This document shows, one piece after another, positions 21,483-24,128 of a stretch of DNA of 24,182 bases; position 1 is the first letter of the stretch; each line of letters begins with the position of its first letter. This stretch comes from a virus, in IMG/VR virus record IMGVR_UViG_3300022925_000172, positions 1-24,182 of that record; one strand, 5' to 3'. Under the pieces are notes generated by a model that worked only from the letters and a program-made list of their open reading frames with translations, ran no database searches and was not told the origin of the DNA. The position numbers and the translations under genes are program-made.

Positions 21483-21492
21483 GTAAGGCATA

Positions 21493-21669
21493 ATGAAGAA
21501 CACAGAAAAACTAATCGCCGAAGCAATCGACCACCTGACTCAGTGCAGCTACACACACAACCGCCTACTAGGTGAAACACCTAGCCGCCTCGCCTTAATC
21601 TTTGGCGAAAAAAAAGTTGAGATAATGGAAAAAAACTTTGCTACACGCTTGACAATCGCACAAAAATAA
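21493..21669 (+). CDS. Small early protein, family A copy 1
   Basis: The 58-aa product starts MKNTEKLIAEAIDHLT and ends RLTIAQK. It is a clear paralogue of the gene at 23946: same start, shared SYxHNR motif, shared L(I)xGxxKVxxMEKxF segment, shared LTxxQK end. It is helical and acidic, with no known domain. Its final codons contain the -35 box of the next promoter (TTGACA, read as part of LTI), so coding end and promoter are fused; the same is true of its paralogue. The start is placed by paralogy and by the promoter just upstream. Likely an early host-interaction protein, function unknown. Confidence 0.75.
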   Translation: MKNTEKLIAEAIDHLTQCSYTHNRLLGETPSRLALIFGEKKVEIMEKNFATRLTIAQK

Positions 21670-22033: not shown

Positions 22034-22061
22034 TTGACTTCCACCTCTCTCAACCTATACT
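22034..22061 (+). promoter_or_regulatory. Early promoter P3
   Basis: TTGACT (22034-22039), a 16-bp spacer and TATACT (22056-22061) continuing GTA. The ATG at 22071 leaves a leader of about 3 nt. Upstream is the block A-run, CTTTGCGATTAGC, also seen before P4 and P5; no 79-bp palindromic element precedes this copy. Confidence 0.75.
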
Positions 22062-22070
22062 GTAAGCATA

Positions 22071-22211
22071 ATGAAAAACGAAAAACTACAAGACCTCTCG
22101 CGCCAATACTGGGATGCTCTCGACCGTCAAGATTATGAGTGGGCTGACTTCATCGACTCATGCTTAGAGCGTGAGGGTATGGAGCGTCTTCCTCTCGAAC
22201 AAATCAAATAA
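22071..22211 (+). CDS. Small early protein, family B copy 1
   Basis: The 46-aa acidic protein has core KLQDLSRQYWDALDRQDYEW, then a second stretch ADFIDSCLEREGMERLPLE. It is a clear paralogue of the product of the gene at 23252, sharing (D)LSxQYW(D/E)A, RQDYEW, CLEREG and RLPLE. It is predicted all-helical, with no known domain. The conservation of this core between two copies in one genome supports both reading frames, though each is under 60 codons. Function unknown; a small early host-takeover protein is a reasonable guess. Confidence 0.75.
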   Translation: MKNEKLQDLSRQYWDALDRQDYEWADFIDSCLEREGMERLPLEQIK

Positions 22212-22223
22212 CCGTTAGACACT

Positions 22224-22352
22224 ATGAAAGCATTCGATATCTTCGCAGTAATTCTCATCGCGCTCATCGCAACCATCACAGTCCTAACGGGCTTACGGTT
22301 AGACGATGAGGCACAGGACATACAGCAAGCGACGTGGCACATCGCTAACTGA
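22224..22352 (+). CDS. Tiny single-pass membrane protein
   Basis: The 42-aa product has one membrane helix at about residues 5-24 (DIFAVILIALIATITVLTGL), with Lys2 before it and an acidic tail LDDEAQDIQQATWHIAN after it. It is the second gene of the P3 transcript, 12 bp after the family B gene, with no Shine-Dalgarno. The stop is followed after 4 bp by the first 79-bp palindromic element. Small early membrane proteins of phages often alter host envelope functions or block superinfection; no evidence here selects one. Confidence 0.55.
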   Translation: MKAFDIFAVILIALIATITVLTGLRLDDEAQDIQQATWHIAN

Positions 22353-22356
22353 GTTA

Positions 22357-22435
22357 CCTAAGTCGTTGAATACCAACGACTTACGCGCGCGGGGCGGGCC
22401 TGGCCGCGTAAGTCCTTGATACTCAGGCACTTACG
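22357..22435 (+). repeat. 79-bp compound palindromic element, copy A
   Basis: Two 29-bp imperfect palindromes (22357-22385 and 22407-22435) are separated by a 21-bp GC-rich spacer. The first has a perfect 10-bp stem, TAAGTCGTTG/CAACGACTTA, with a 5-nt loop. The second has arms CGTAAGT/ACTTACG plus an inner TTGA/TCAG-type stem. The spacer contains GGCC-T-GGCC. It begins 4 bp after a stop codon and ends 48 bp before the -35 of P4. Confidence 0.85.
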
Positions 22436-22483
22436 ACACATCTAATAAAAATGCAAAAAAACTTAAAAAAGATTGCGATAAGC

Positions 22484-22511
22484 TTGACATTCCGACTCAG
22501 CCACCTATACT
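22484..22511 (+). promoter_or_regulatory. Early promoter P4, leaderless
   Basis: TTGACA (22484-22489), a 16-bp spacer and TATACT (22506-22511) continuing GTAGGT and then ATG at 22518. The A of the ATG sits at the expected transcription start. Preceded by the A-run, GATTGCGATAAGC block. Confidence 0.8.
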
Positions 22512-22517
22512 GTAGGT

Positions 22518-22727
22518 ATGATTAAAAATAACACATACACAGTCACCACAGTCGAATTTTCTAGCACAGGCGAAATGCGCGAGCAGGTTCGCGACTTCCC
22601 CAAATGCCGTGAGGGTCTCATCGCCGCTTACGCTTTCGCTAATCCTTGCGACGAGTGGGCAATCTGGTTCGGCGACGAGCTGGTAGACGACAGCTGCTGC
22701 ACCCCTGCTCACCTAGTGGTAGCGTAA
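22518..22727 (+). CDS. Small early protein, unknown
   Basis: The 69-aa product has an N-terminal strand pair (NTYTVTTVEFSSTGEM), a helix region KCREGLIAAYAFANP, then DEWAIWFGDELVDDSC. It is acidic with four Cys (one near residue 30, one near 44 and the pair CC near 60), too irregular for a clear zinc site. Its ATG coincides with the predicted P4 transcription start, so translation must begin on a leaderless mRNA. The following 47-aa gene shares the transcript. No family recognised. Confidence 0.65.
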   Translation: MIKNNTYTVTTVEFSSTGEMREQVRDFPKCREGLIAAYAFANPCDEWAIWFGDELVDDSCCTPAHLVVA

Positions 22728-22750
22728 ACTTTACTAACGCAATAATAATT

Positions 22751-22894
22751 ATGACATATAAAATAATCCGCTTCTTTTTCGACAGCTCACCCCGCACAAT
22801 CCAAAAAGGCTTGACACTTGAGGAGGCTCAAGAGCATTGCCGCCGCGATGACACGCACGGTGACGGCTGGTTTGACGGCTACGAACGCGAGTGA
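22751..22894 (+). CDS. Short member of a widespread phage protein family, unknown function
   Basis: The 47-aa product MTYKIIRFFFDSSPRT, then GLTLEEAQEHCRRD and GWFDGYERE, matches a pattern I know from many phage hypothetical proteins: '(K/R)IIRF ... RTI(K)xGLTLEEAQxHC ... WFDGYxEE'. Those usually have a longer insert between the HC and WFDGY parts; this copy is trimmed to about 10 residues there. A longer open frame starts at 22646, but the ATG at 22751 gives the family N-terminus and follows the previous stop by 23 bp. The stop codon directly abuts palindromic element copy B. Function unknown. Confidence 0.75.
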   Translation: MTYKIIRFFFDSSPRTIQKGLTLEEAQEHCRRDDTHGDGWFDGYERE

Positions 22895-22973
22895 CGTAAG
22901 TCCTTGACAGTCAACGACTTACGCGGCCGAGGCCGCCCCGCGCGCGTAAGTGCTTGATACTCAACGACTTACG
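22895..22973 (+). repeat. 79-bp compound palindromic element, copy B
   Basis: 29-bp palindromes lie at 22895-22923 and 22945-22973, again 21 bp apart. The arms are CGTAAGT/ACTTACG with inner TTGA/TCAA and 3-nt loops; one or two mismatches fall at the arm-inner junction. The spacer holds GCGGCC-GA-GGCCGC (22923-22936), a perfect inverted repeat. It starts at the base after the TGA stop of the 47-aa gene and ends 45 bp before the -35 of P5. Confidence 0.88.
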
Positions 22974-23018
22974 ACACAAAAAAAACTTTAAAAAACTTAA
23001 AAAAACTTTGCGATAAGC

Positions 23019-23046
23019 TTGACTTTCGCGTTTCAGCCGCTATACT
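23019..23046 (+). promoter_or_regulatory. Early promoter P5, leaderless
   Basis: TTGACT (23019-23024), a 16-bp spacer and TATACT (23041-23046) continuing GTAGGT and then ATG at 23053, exactly as at P4. Upstream is a long A/T tract and the CTTTGCGATAAGC block. Confidence 0.8.
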
Positions 23047-23052
23047 GTAGGT

Positions 23053-23211
23053 ATGATAAAAATTAAGAATACTAAAGCTGAAACTCGCATCACTGAAACC
23101 ATCAACGGCGTTACTCGCGGTTCTACGATTATACATGATCGCGACCTCTACGAAAAAGAGTTGTTCGCTCGCATTAAGAAAATCAACAAAGCGTTAGCAG
23201 AAGAGTGCTAA
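23053..23211 (+). CDS. Small early protein, unknown
   Basis: The 52-aa product starts MIKIKNTKAETRITETINGV and continues TRGSTIIHDRDL, then a helix YEKELFARIKKINKALAEE and a final Cys. It is a basic strand-turn-helix protein, possibly nucleic-acid or protein binding, with no family I recognise. The ATG is at the predicted P5 transcription start. The stop (23209-23211) lies 6 bp before the -35 of P6, so this gene has its own transcript. Confidence 0.65.
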   Translation: MIKIKNTKAETRITETINGVTRGSTIIHDRDLYEKELFARIKKINKALAEEC

Positions 23212-23217
23212 TTCGGG

Positions 23218-23245
23218 TTGACAACCACACAAAAATAACCATACT
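23218..23245 (+). promoter_or_regulatory. Early promoter P6, leaderless
   Basis: TTGACA (23218-23223), a 16-bp spacer and CATACT (23240-23245) continuing GTAAGC and then ATG at 23252. The spacer (ending ACACAAAAATAAC) is almost that of P2, where it encodes the C-terminus and stop of a family A gene; here it is non-coding. Confidence 0.8.
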
Positions 23246-23251
23246 GTAAGC

Positions 23252-23431
23252 ATGATTAACTACCACAAACTACACGACCTCTCCTGCCAATACTGGGAAG
23301 CAATCGCCCGCCAAGACTACGAATGGTCTGATTACATTGACTGCTGTCTAGAACGTGAGGGTGTGGCTCGCCTTCCTCTCGAAGATTGCGAAGAGTCTAT
23401 CCTCGACCTTTCTCCTCTCGAAGTAAACTAA
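23252..23431 (+). CDS. Small early protein, family B copy 2
   Basis: The 59-aa product MINYHKLHDLSCQYWEAIAR, followed by QDYEWSDYIDCCLEREG and RLPLE, is the longer paralogue of the 46-aa protein encoded at 22071. It adds a 13-residue acidic tail, CEESILDLSPLEV. Three Cys lie in the core, one of which is shared. It is predicted helical, unknown function. The ATG is at the P6 transcription start, so the mRNA is leaderless, whereas copy 1 has about 3 nt of leader. The DUF3846-type gene follows after 13 bp on the same transcript. Confidence 0.78.
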   Translation: MINYHKLHDLSCQYWEAIARQDYEWSDYIDCCLEREGVARLPLEDCEESILDLSPLEVN

Positions 23432-23444
23432 CCTAATAACGATT

Positions 23445-23771
23445 ATGACAAAAGCAATACTGATTGACCCTTTCCTCCCCGCGATCTCAACTGTTGAGGT
23501 TGACGGGTTCGAAGATATCCAACGCATGATTGATTGCCGTTGCTTTACCTGTGTGCGCTTTCCCGATGGTAAGCACGTTGCATACGTTGACGACGAAGGT
23601 CTGATCAACAATACGCGAGTGGGCGTTAGGTTTATCGATAAGATTTATCCCGATGCTTTGGCTGGGCGTATTCTTATCCTTGCCGACGACGGGCAAGGCG
23701 GCGACGCTGACTGCGAGCTGACAGGCGCGGATGTCCAAGCGATGATAAAAGGAATCGTGGAATTCGGATAA
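23445..23771 (+). CDS. DUF3846-like protein
   Basis: The 108-aa product has the shape of the DUF3846 family. An N-terminal AILIDPFLPAISTVEVDGFE (family 'vidP...i..veid.l.e') is followed by IQRMIDCRCFTCVRFPDG, then YVDDEGLINNTRVGVRFI, then a glycine-containing GRILILADDGQGGD strand. The 'vddEGl' motif is the family's most conserved point. These proteins occur in phages, plasmids and mobile elements; their role is unknown. It is second on the P6 transcript. It ends 13 bp before palindromic element copy C, and a TTGACA lies in that gap without a good -10. Confidence 0.65.
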   Translation: MTKAILIDPFLPAISTVEVDGFEDIQRMIDCRCFTCVRFPDGKHVAYVDDEGLINNTRVGVRFIDKIYPDALAGRILILADDGQGGDADCELTGADVQAMIKGIVEFG

Positions 23772-23784
23772 AAAGCTTGACACC

Positions 23785-23863
23785 CGTAAGTTGCTGACTA
23801 TCAACGACTTACGGGCGCAGGGCGGCCCTGGCCGCGTAAGTGCTTGGTATTCAACGACTTACG
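23785..23863 (+). repeat. 79-bp compound palindromic element, copy C
   Basis: 29-bp palindromes lie at 23785-23813 and 23835-23863, once more 21 bp apart. The arms CGTAAGT/ACTTACG are unchanged; inner stems vary by single substitutions. The spacer has GCGGCC-CT-GGCCGC, a perfect inverted repeat. It ends 45 bp before the -35 of P7, after which an A/T tract follows as in copies A and B. Confidence 0.88.
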
Positions 23864-23908: not shown

Positions 23909-23936
23909 TTGACAGCACCAAAAAATCTGTCATACT
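23909..23936 (+). promoter_or_regulatory. Early promoter P7
   Basis: TTGACA (23909-23914), a 16-bp spacer and CATACT (23931-23936) continuing GTAAGC. The ATG at 23946 leaves about 3 nt of leader (ATA). The upstream block has drifted to CTTCGTGATTTAG. Confidence 0.75.
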
Positions 23937-23945
23937 GTAAGCATA

Positions 23946-24128
23946 ATGAAAAACACGGATAAATTAATTGCTGAAGCCATCGACCACCTAACGTATTCTA
24001 GCTACGCGCATAATCGCGAGCTTAGCCCCGAGATCGAACCTACTCGCTGGGGATTGATCTACGGCGCGGAAAAAGTCAATTTGATGGAAAAAATATTCGT
24101 AAAGTCATTGACAGCCAAGCAAAAATAA
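23946..24128 (+). CDS. Small early protein, family A copy 2
   Basis: The 60-aa product MKNTDKLIAEAIDHLTYSSY, followed by AHNREL, LIYGAEKVNLMEKIF and LTAKQK, is the paralogue of the protein encoded at 21493. It carries a two-residue insertion near the middle (LSPEIEPTRW in place of LGETPSRL). As in copy 1, its last codons include a TTGACA that forms the -35 of the next promoter (P8), so the gene-plus-promoter unit was duplicated as a whole. Helical, acidic, unknown function. Confidence 0.78.
   Translation: MKNTDKLIAEAIDHLTYSSYAHNRELSPEIEPTRWGLIYGAEKVNLMEKIFVKSLTAKQK

Follow-up and report, generated by a model that had tools for sequence, protein, structure and literature searches.

A 79-bp element, consisting of two 29-bp palindromes separated by a GC-rich spacer of 21 bp, occurs three times in the window (the whole 24,182-bp IMG/VR virus record analysed here) and may act, with a probability of about one half, as a protein-bound two-way boundary between adjacent early transcription units of a lytic phage. 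In the proposed mechanism, a protein dimer would bind each palindrome through its repeated half-site, so that every element would carry two dimers, set apart by the same distance throughout most genomes, with the hard-to-melt spacer between them. The bound complex would halt or buffer RNA polymerase, and perhaps supercoiling as well, arriving from either side, with the outcome that dense and strong early units would not read into one another. The same complex could switch the early block off as the protein accumulates, and the repeated element could double as a homologous seam for the exchange of early-gene modules. The binding of a protein, its encoding by the phage and the block or insulation of transcription are what we infer from sequence. 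A more far-reaching version is tentative: two dimers of a phage protein at a genome-specific distance might insulate units in both directions, with distance and half-site shifting in concert across the copies as the specificity of the protein changes between lineages, which would constitute a new class of phage boundary element.

How large lytic phages keep strong side-by-side early units apart is mostly not understood. The element is abundant in environmental viromes and its anatomy is testable in terms of half-site, spacing, GC-rich spacer and two-way placement. It offers a handle on early-region insulation, the shuffling of accessory early genes and the concerted change of spacing across a set of sites, and compact two-way insulators for synthetic biology are a possible use.

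The preliminary description of this DNA had placed the three copies at 22357-22435, 22895-22973 and 23785-23863, each of 29 + 21 + 29 bp, and all three were borne out. Copy 1 is composed of a left palindrome (CCTAAGTCGTTGAATACCAACGACTTACG) at 22357..22385, a spacer at 22386..22406 and a right palindrome at 22407..22435. The corresponding parts occupy 22895..22923, 22924..22944 and 22945..22973 in copy 2, and 23785..23813, 23814..23834 and 23835..23863 in copy 3. The palindromes, located by consensus scan, and the spacers, read from the sequence (with spacer class analysis for copy 1), are assigned to neither strand. With up to three mismatches to the consensus allowed, exactly six sites are found in the window and none in 100 dinucleotide shuffles. 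Each copy follows an open reading frame (ORF) on the plus strand. A 42-aa ORF read from the sequence (22224..22352) stops 4 bp ahead of copy 1, a 47-aa ORF likewise read from the sequence (22751..22894; a longer TTG-start version exists) has a stop abutting copy 2 with a gap of 0 bp, and a 108-aa ORF (23445..23771) stops 13 bp ahead of copy 3. Putative early-type promoters, recognised by consensus only and also on the plus strand, follow at 22484..22512 (TTGACA-N17-TATACT, a member of a repeated family), 23019..23047 (TTGACT-N17-TATACT) and 23909..23937 (TTGACA...CATACT). Their TTGAC-type -35 boxes start 48, 45 and 45 bp past copies 1 to 3, and these measurements agree with the 0 to 13 bp from stop codons and 45 to 48 bp to promoters first reported. 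The copies are 79-80% alike across 90 bp and are thus not recent identical duplications of a block. The small early genes among which the elements are interspersed form paralogous pairs (21488-21564 / 23941-24017 and 22057-22199 / 23241-23383), with DNA 78-79% identical over the repeat. An Rfam search of the window returned tRNAs only, with no match of the element to any curated RNA family.

The search of virome data that the preliminary description had suggested recovered the palindrome in 109 IMG/VR stretches of viral DNA. A half-site weight matrix located 1,018 sites in the carrier loci, of which 959 (94%) are paired and 59 have no partner inside 65 bp. The start-to-start distance is mostly one value per genome and differs between genomes (42, 46-53 or 58 bp), with a single spacing in 56 of the 78 loci having at least two distinct pairs. 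The fixed 50-bp unit spacing described for the window therefore holds within its own lineage, while other lineages have other fixed distances. In the 1.45 Mb made up of 11 long contigs and the window, nearly all sites lie inside one early-gene block of ~10-16 kb, and reversed-sequence controls of the same set gave zero sites. Seven pairs at 53 bp are present in G002, fourteen at 42 bp in G007, eight at 52 bp in G008 and eight at 50 bp in G012; more complex arrays occur in G005 and in the L015, L020 and L022 loci. The exception to the single block is G001, where sites lie near both contig ends and part of the block is duplicated. These long duplicated blocks (11-21 kb and 130-146 kb) include DUF932 and RuvB-like genes and may reflect terminal redundancy, duplication or assembly.

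The long contigs have ~45 core proteins in common, including terminase, UvsX-like recombinase, DnaB-like helicase, PhoH, a sigma-like factor, rIIA and rIIB, and the carriers look like one family of large, lytic, uncultured phages. With regard to a T4-type affiliation, matches to rIIA/rIIB, UvsX-like and terminase proteins were obtained, and a Pfam search for gp23 was uninformative, its controls being silent as well. None of 50,697 phage records proved to be a close relative of the carriers, and no convincing match to the element was obtained among the isolated phages searched. Neither an integrase or serine recombinase nor a Y1/RAYT transposase (a search with positive controls) was detected in 16 carrier records, some of them perhaps incomplete. 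The window also encodes, on its minus strand at 644-1573, a protein found throughout the carrier family in which a C2H2-type zinc finger is joined to an ERCC4-type nuclease domain. A neighbouring gene at 1551-2597, also on the minus strand, encodes a core protein present in 11 of 12 compared records, with no family match and two HTH-like repeats discerned by eye. In relatives, the large subunit of the terminase is encoded two genes away from its homologue; because of the repeats and this location, the product is perhaps the small terminase.

The element is placed at the end of a transcription unit, regardless of the orientation of the neighbouring unit. A junction census of the element regions, based on a codon-model gene caller whose simple calls will be wrong for some short genes, found it at 39 of 49 convergent, 14 of 23 divergent and 226 of 684 codirectional junctions. 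At codirectional junctions it lies between stop and promoter, and the median gap is 211 bp with the element versus 28 bp without it, although some element-free gaps resemble unit ends too. Promoter-like sequences are enriched downstream of the element (59/275 versus 10/275 shuffled), at a median of ~50 bp past it in relatives. Divergent gaps are usually wide enough to hold a promoter on either side of the element. At several convergent junctions (L038, L051, L076 and L098) the element takes up the entire gap of 69-91 bp, which makes a promoter function impossible there. Of the two roles first listed together, insulator and operator, a boundary or insulator is favoured over a promoter operator because promoterless convergent junctions carry the element most often. 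It counts against the boundary reading that avoidance of genes would equally be expected of a neutral intergenic repeat.

The suggestion of an unusual terminator did not hold. On the sense strand, the flank that directly follows the element is rich in A (A 0.45, T 0.23) and has no U-tract, and a hairpin with a T-run was found within the element in just 8 of 371 cases. A classic intrinsic terminator is situated just upstream in 65 of 275 codirectional cases (~23%), so the element is not the sole stop signal there. Together, these three observations indicate that the element is not itself a terminator; it stands alone or between terminator and promoter.

The half-site is CGTAAGTNNYTGA, in which A4, A5 and T11 are essentially invariant and positions 8-9 are loose. 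The palindromic arms reported earlier are present as dyads, but they are imperfect and often unpaired at positions 8-10, with non-Watson-Crick pairs at 8/22 and 9/21 in 47-62% of sites. Covariation between the arms was looked for by shuffling half-sites within genomes and was not found, the arm match being 53% at 8/22 (shuffled 55%), 38% at 9/21 (38%), 69% at 6/24 (67%) and below the shuffled value at 10/20; the filter used here admitted at most 3 mismatches in the arms and may bias positions there, with positions 8-10 unaffected. Mismatches read on the sense strand were G-U in 472 cases and A-C in 476, with no G-U excess. There is no sign of selection on RNA pairing. Since the arms do not covary and G-U is no commoner than A-C, each palindrome is most plausibly a double-stranded DNA site recognised by a symmetric protein dimer, not an RNA hairpin. 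Where a protein-bound or folded structure had been proposed, the protein-bound DNA is thus favoured, and the A-rich flanks likewise speak against the folded RNA. The inner half-sites are slightly better conserved than the outer (17.8 versus 16.6 bits), and the whole element is therefore symmetric around its spacer.

The spacers are GC-rich as described, with a median of 90% GC in genomes of 30-41% GC. Their palindromy is weak beyond composition, as self-complementarity is only slightly above that of shuffles (mean fold z -0.49), and the term "triple palindrome" was an overstatement; so was the notion of co-varying spacers, which found no support. The spacer of the 58-bp class has a clear hairpin, GACCCC-N3-GGGGTC. 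Within genomes, spacers are 73% identical in their best orientation versus 79% for the arms, and some are exact inversions of one another (L022, L033). In some genomes the same-orientation identity of spacers falls to 0.32-0.40, with length unchanged. The identities and the inverted spacers indicate that the copies within one genome are related by descent, so the constant length is not readable as pure selection on distance. The constant spacing may arise partly from copying instead of a spacing requirement.

Related genomes indicate how the element has changed. In a tree of gp88, the spacing classes interleave with element-free relatives; as gp88 is transferable between phages, this gene tree is not the genome tree. 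The loci L045 (42 bp) and L068 (47 bp) have nearly identical gp88 (distance about 0.01), and at a junction shared by both, the end of the upstream gene and the left arm are kept, while the spacer, the right site and the downstream gene differ. An additional element-bounded module is present in L090 compared with L030. Non-collinear joins coincide with the element in 48% of cases versus 27% of random windows, a comparison biased by masked elements ending alignments there. Through these clear examples, the element also appears to mark seams of module shuffling.

Element-free relatives (L220, L225, L229, L247, L267 and L290) have different repeated sites at comparable junctions. In L220 (2680-9390) there are no CGTAAGT pairs, and CTAACAG arrays of TCTAACAG/CTGTTAGA units, phased at 10-11 bp around GC-rich centres, lie between genes. 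In L229 (1130-9916), TTTTTTAT is joined through a GC-rich stretch of about 20 bp to ATAAAAA in nine scattered copies; the usual interval between them is about 1 kb, and CTGTTAGA follows most of them. The dyads TCCGTAAGATAC...GTATCTTACGGA stand at gene junctions in L247 (2885-9650) and have CGTAAG in common with the element, while the inner half is different. L225 carries a degraded version of the element with an AT spacer. The gp88-bearing L276, L290 and L267 have dispersed sites between stop and promoter, and those of this group comprise CCTTGATCTGACACGG..CCAG, CGATTGTAACGAA (L290) and the perfect palindrome TGTCATAAATATGACA (L267).

The binder was sought among the phage proteins and was not found, as no protein proved universal to the early loci. 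DUF932 was considered as a candidate, being present in 12 of 16 carrier records, but it also occurs in 13 element-free loci and its predicted structure is poor (pLDDT 54), so it is not put forward. No host regulon of the site was found in 84,980 bacterial and archaeal genomes, which points to a binder that is probably phage-encoded. The bacterial palindromes were mostly single hits, read as chance perfect hairpins, or repeat copies of one MAG. A perfect CGTAAGTCGTTG palindrome lies upstream of the transposase-like gene carried by a multi-copy repeat in a Verrucomicrobiae MAG (L115, L127, L130, L131, L133, L135). The one case with phage-like pairing, on a 5.7-kb contig in a MAG (L117), is probably viral.

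A phage repressor occupying all elements could instead shut the early block in a stoperator-like manner, acting on both initiation and elongation, for early shut-off or to keep a second phage out. Cluster A mycobacteriophages likewise have numerous sites scattered between their transcription units (PMC9283540), and the lineage-specific sites at like junctions in the six element-free relatives are as diversifying repressor specificity predicts. However, the window sites lie upstream of promoters, not over them, as do those of relatives at their median of ~50 bp, and sites elsewhere stand at convergent ends. The 16 carrier records yielded no integrase or serine recombinase, no repressor is among the core families listed, and orientation cannot matter for symmetric sites, unlike stoperators. 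Such silencing is rather unlikely as the main role; most evidence is shared between a boundary and early shut-off repressor sites, and these may be one system at different times. The paralogy of copies within a genome, the switch of spacing class between the close relatives L045 and L068, the joining of one upstream gene to different downstream genes across the element, the extra module of L090 and the masking-biased excess at non-collinear joins could all be accounted for by a mobile repeat of REPIN-like or PeSL-like kind, in essence a cassette that spreads itself or is prone to recombination, with regulation secondary. This is the less probable of the two, as the same 16 records contain no detected Y1/RAYT transposase, and the element is confined to unit boundaries in one early block and has persisted, its invariant half-site letters included, throughout a divergent phage family.

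Two other readings are more remote. Sites of the parS type cluster in one block, and the clustering within 10-16 kb would suit a nucleoprotein site that does not act on transcription directly, be it a replication origin cluster, a partition site or one that organises DNA, the unit ends being merely intergenic. This is very improbable, as the elements follow unit boundaries, not an even spacing, and are missing from short within-operon gaps; the replication iterons once suggested are at odds with copies scattered among transcription units and forming no single array. A folded RNA or cruciform, serving as bidirectional terminator, RNase site or RNA-protein site, could draw on dyads able to fold, on the slight self-complementarity of the spacers and on the hairpin of the 58-bp class. 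It is the least probable of all, given the often unpaired positions 8/22 and 9/21, arms that do not covary, the nearly equal G-U and A-C counts and the missing U-tract; an RNA hairpin or intrinsic terminator is rejected on the same grounds, together with the A-rich flank and the rarity of a hairpin with T-run. The two-way boundary remains the favoured account.

Several known systems share parts of this architecture. The preliminary description knew of no described element with this architecture, which stands within the literature searched, although relatives in kind exist in stoperators and PeSLs. REPINs and REP sequences are paired imperfect palindromes, extragenic, with genome-specific spacing and paralogous copies, and the element shares all of these features. 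It differs from them in its GC-rich spacer, its restriction to one early block, its unit-end placement and the lack of a detected RAYT/Y1 transposase. Dispersed phage repressor operators are likewise dyad sites near early promoters; the element differs in being paired around a GC-rich spacer and in occurring also at promoterless convergent ends. The GC-rich hairpin followed by a U-tract of an intrinsic terminator is not seen, nor, in carrier records that are perhaps incomplete, is the recombinase expected of a tyrosine or serine recombinase site.

The stoperators of cluster A mycobacteriophages (L5, TipsytheTRex) are spread genome-wide over the short intergenic gaps of temperate phages, where a bound immunity repressor is proposed to stop elongation; each is one asymmetric site of 13 bp that binds a monomer and follows the direction of transcription (PMC9283540). 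The element resembles them in its many dispersed intergenic sites and lineage-specific sequences. In contrast to their asymmetry, it consists of two-way pairs of 29-bp palindromes with the same half-site in both arms and at a fixed distance, and it is confined to one early block of phages that carry rIIA/rIIB and yielded no integrase. Among T4-type phages, promoter early stem-loops (PeSLs; Arbiol 2010 and Comeau 2014, as cited in PMC4503421) are reported to unite a promoter and a stem-loop terminator in one motif. Both are repeated cassettes between small early genes with an early promoter adjoining, although the element has no such promoter at convergent junctions; PeSLs lie at seams of module shuffling, and the element, by its examples, appears to do so too. 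PeSLs contain the terminator, whereas the dyads of the element are DNA sites whose arms do not covary and which have no U-tract; they are paired at a fixed distance, and in about a quarter of cases an intrinsic terminator of its own stands upstream of the element. As stoperators and PeSLs each differ from the element in at least one defining feature tested, it belongs to neither. Stoperators are nearest to it in presumed action, and PeSLs are nearest in setting.
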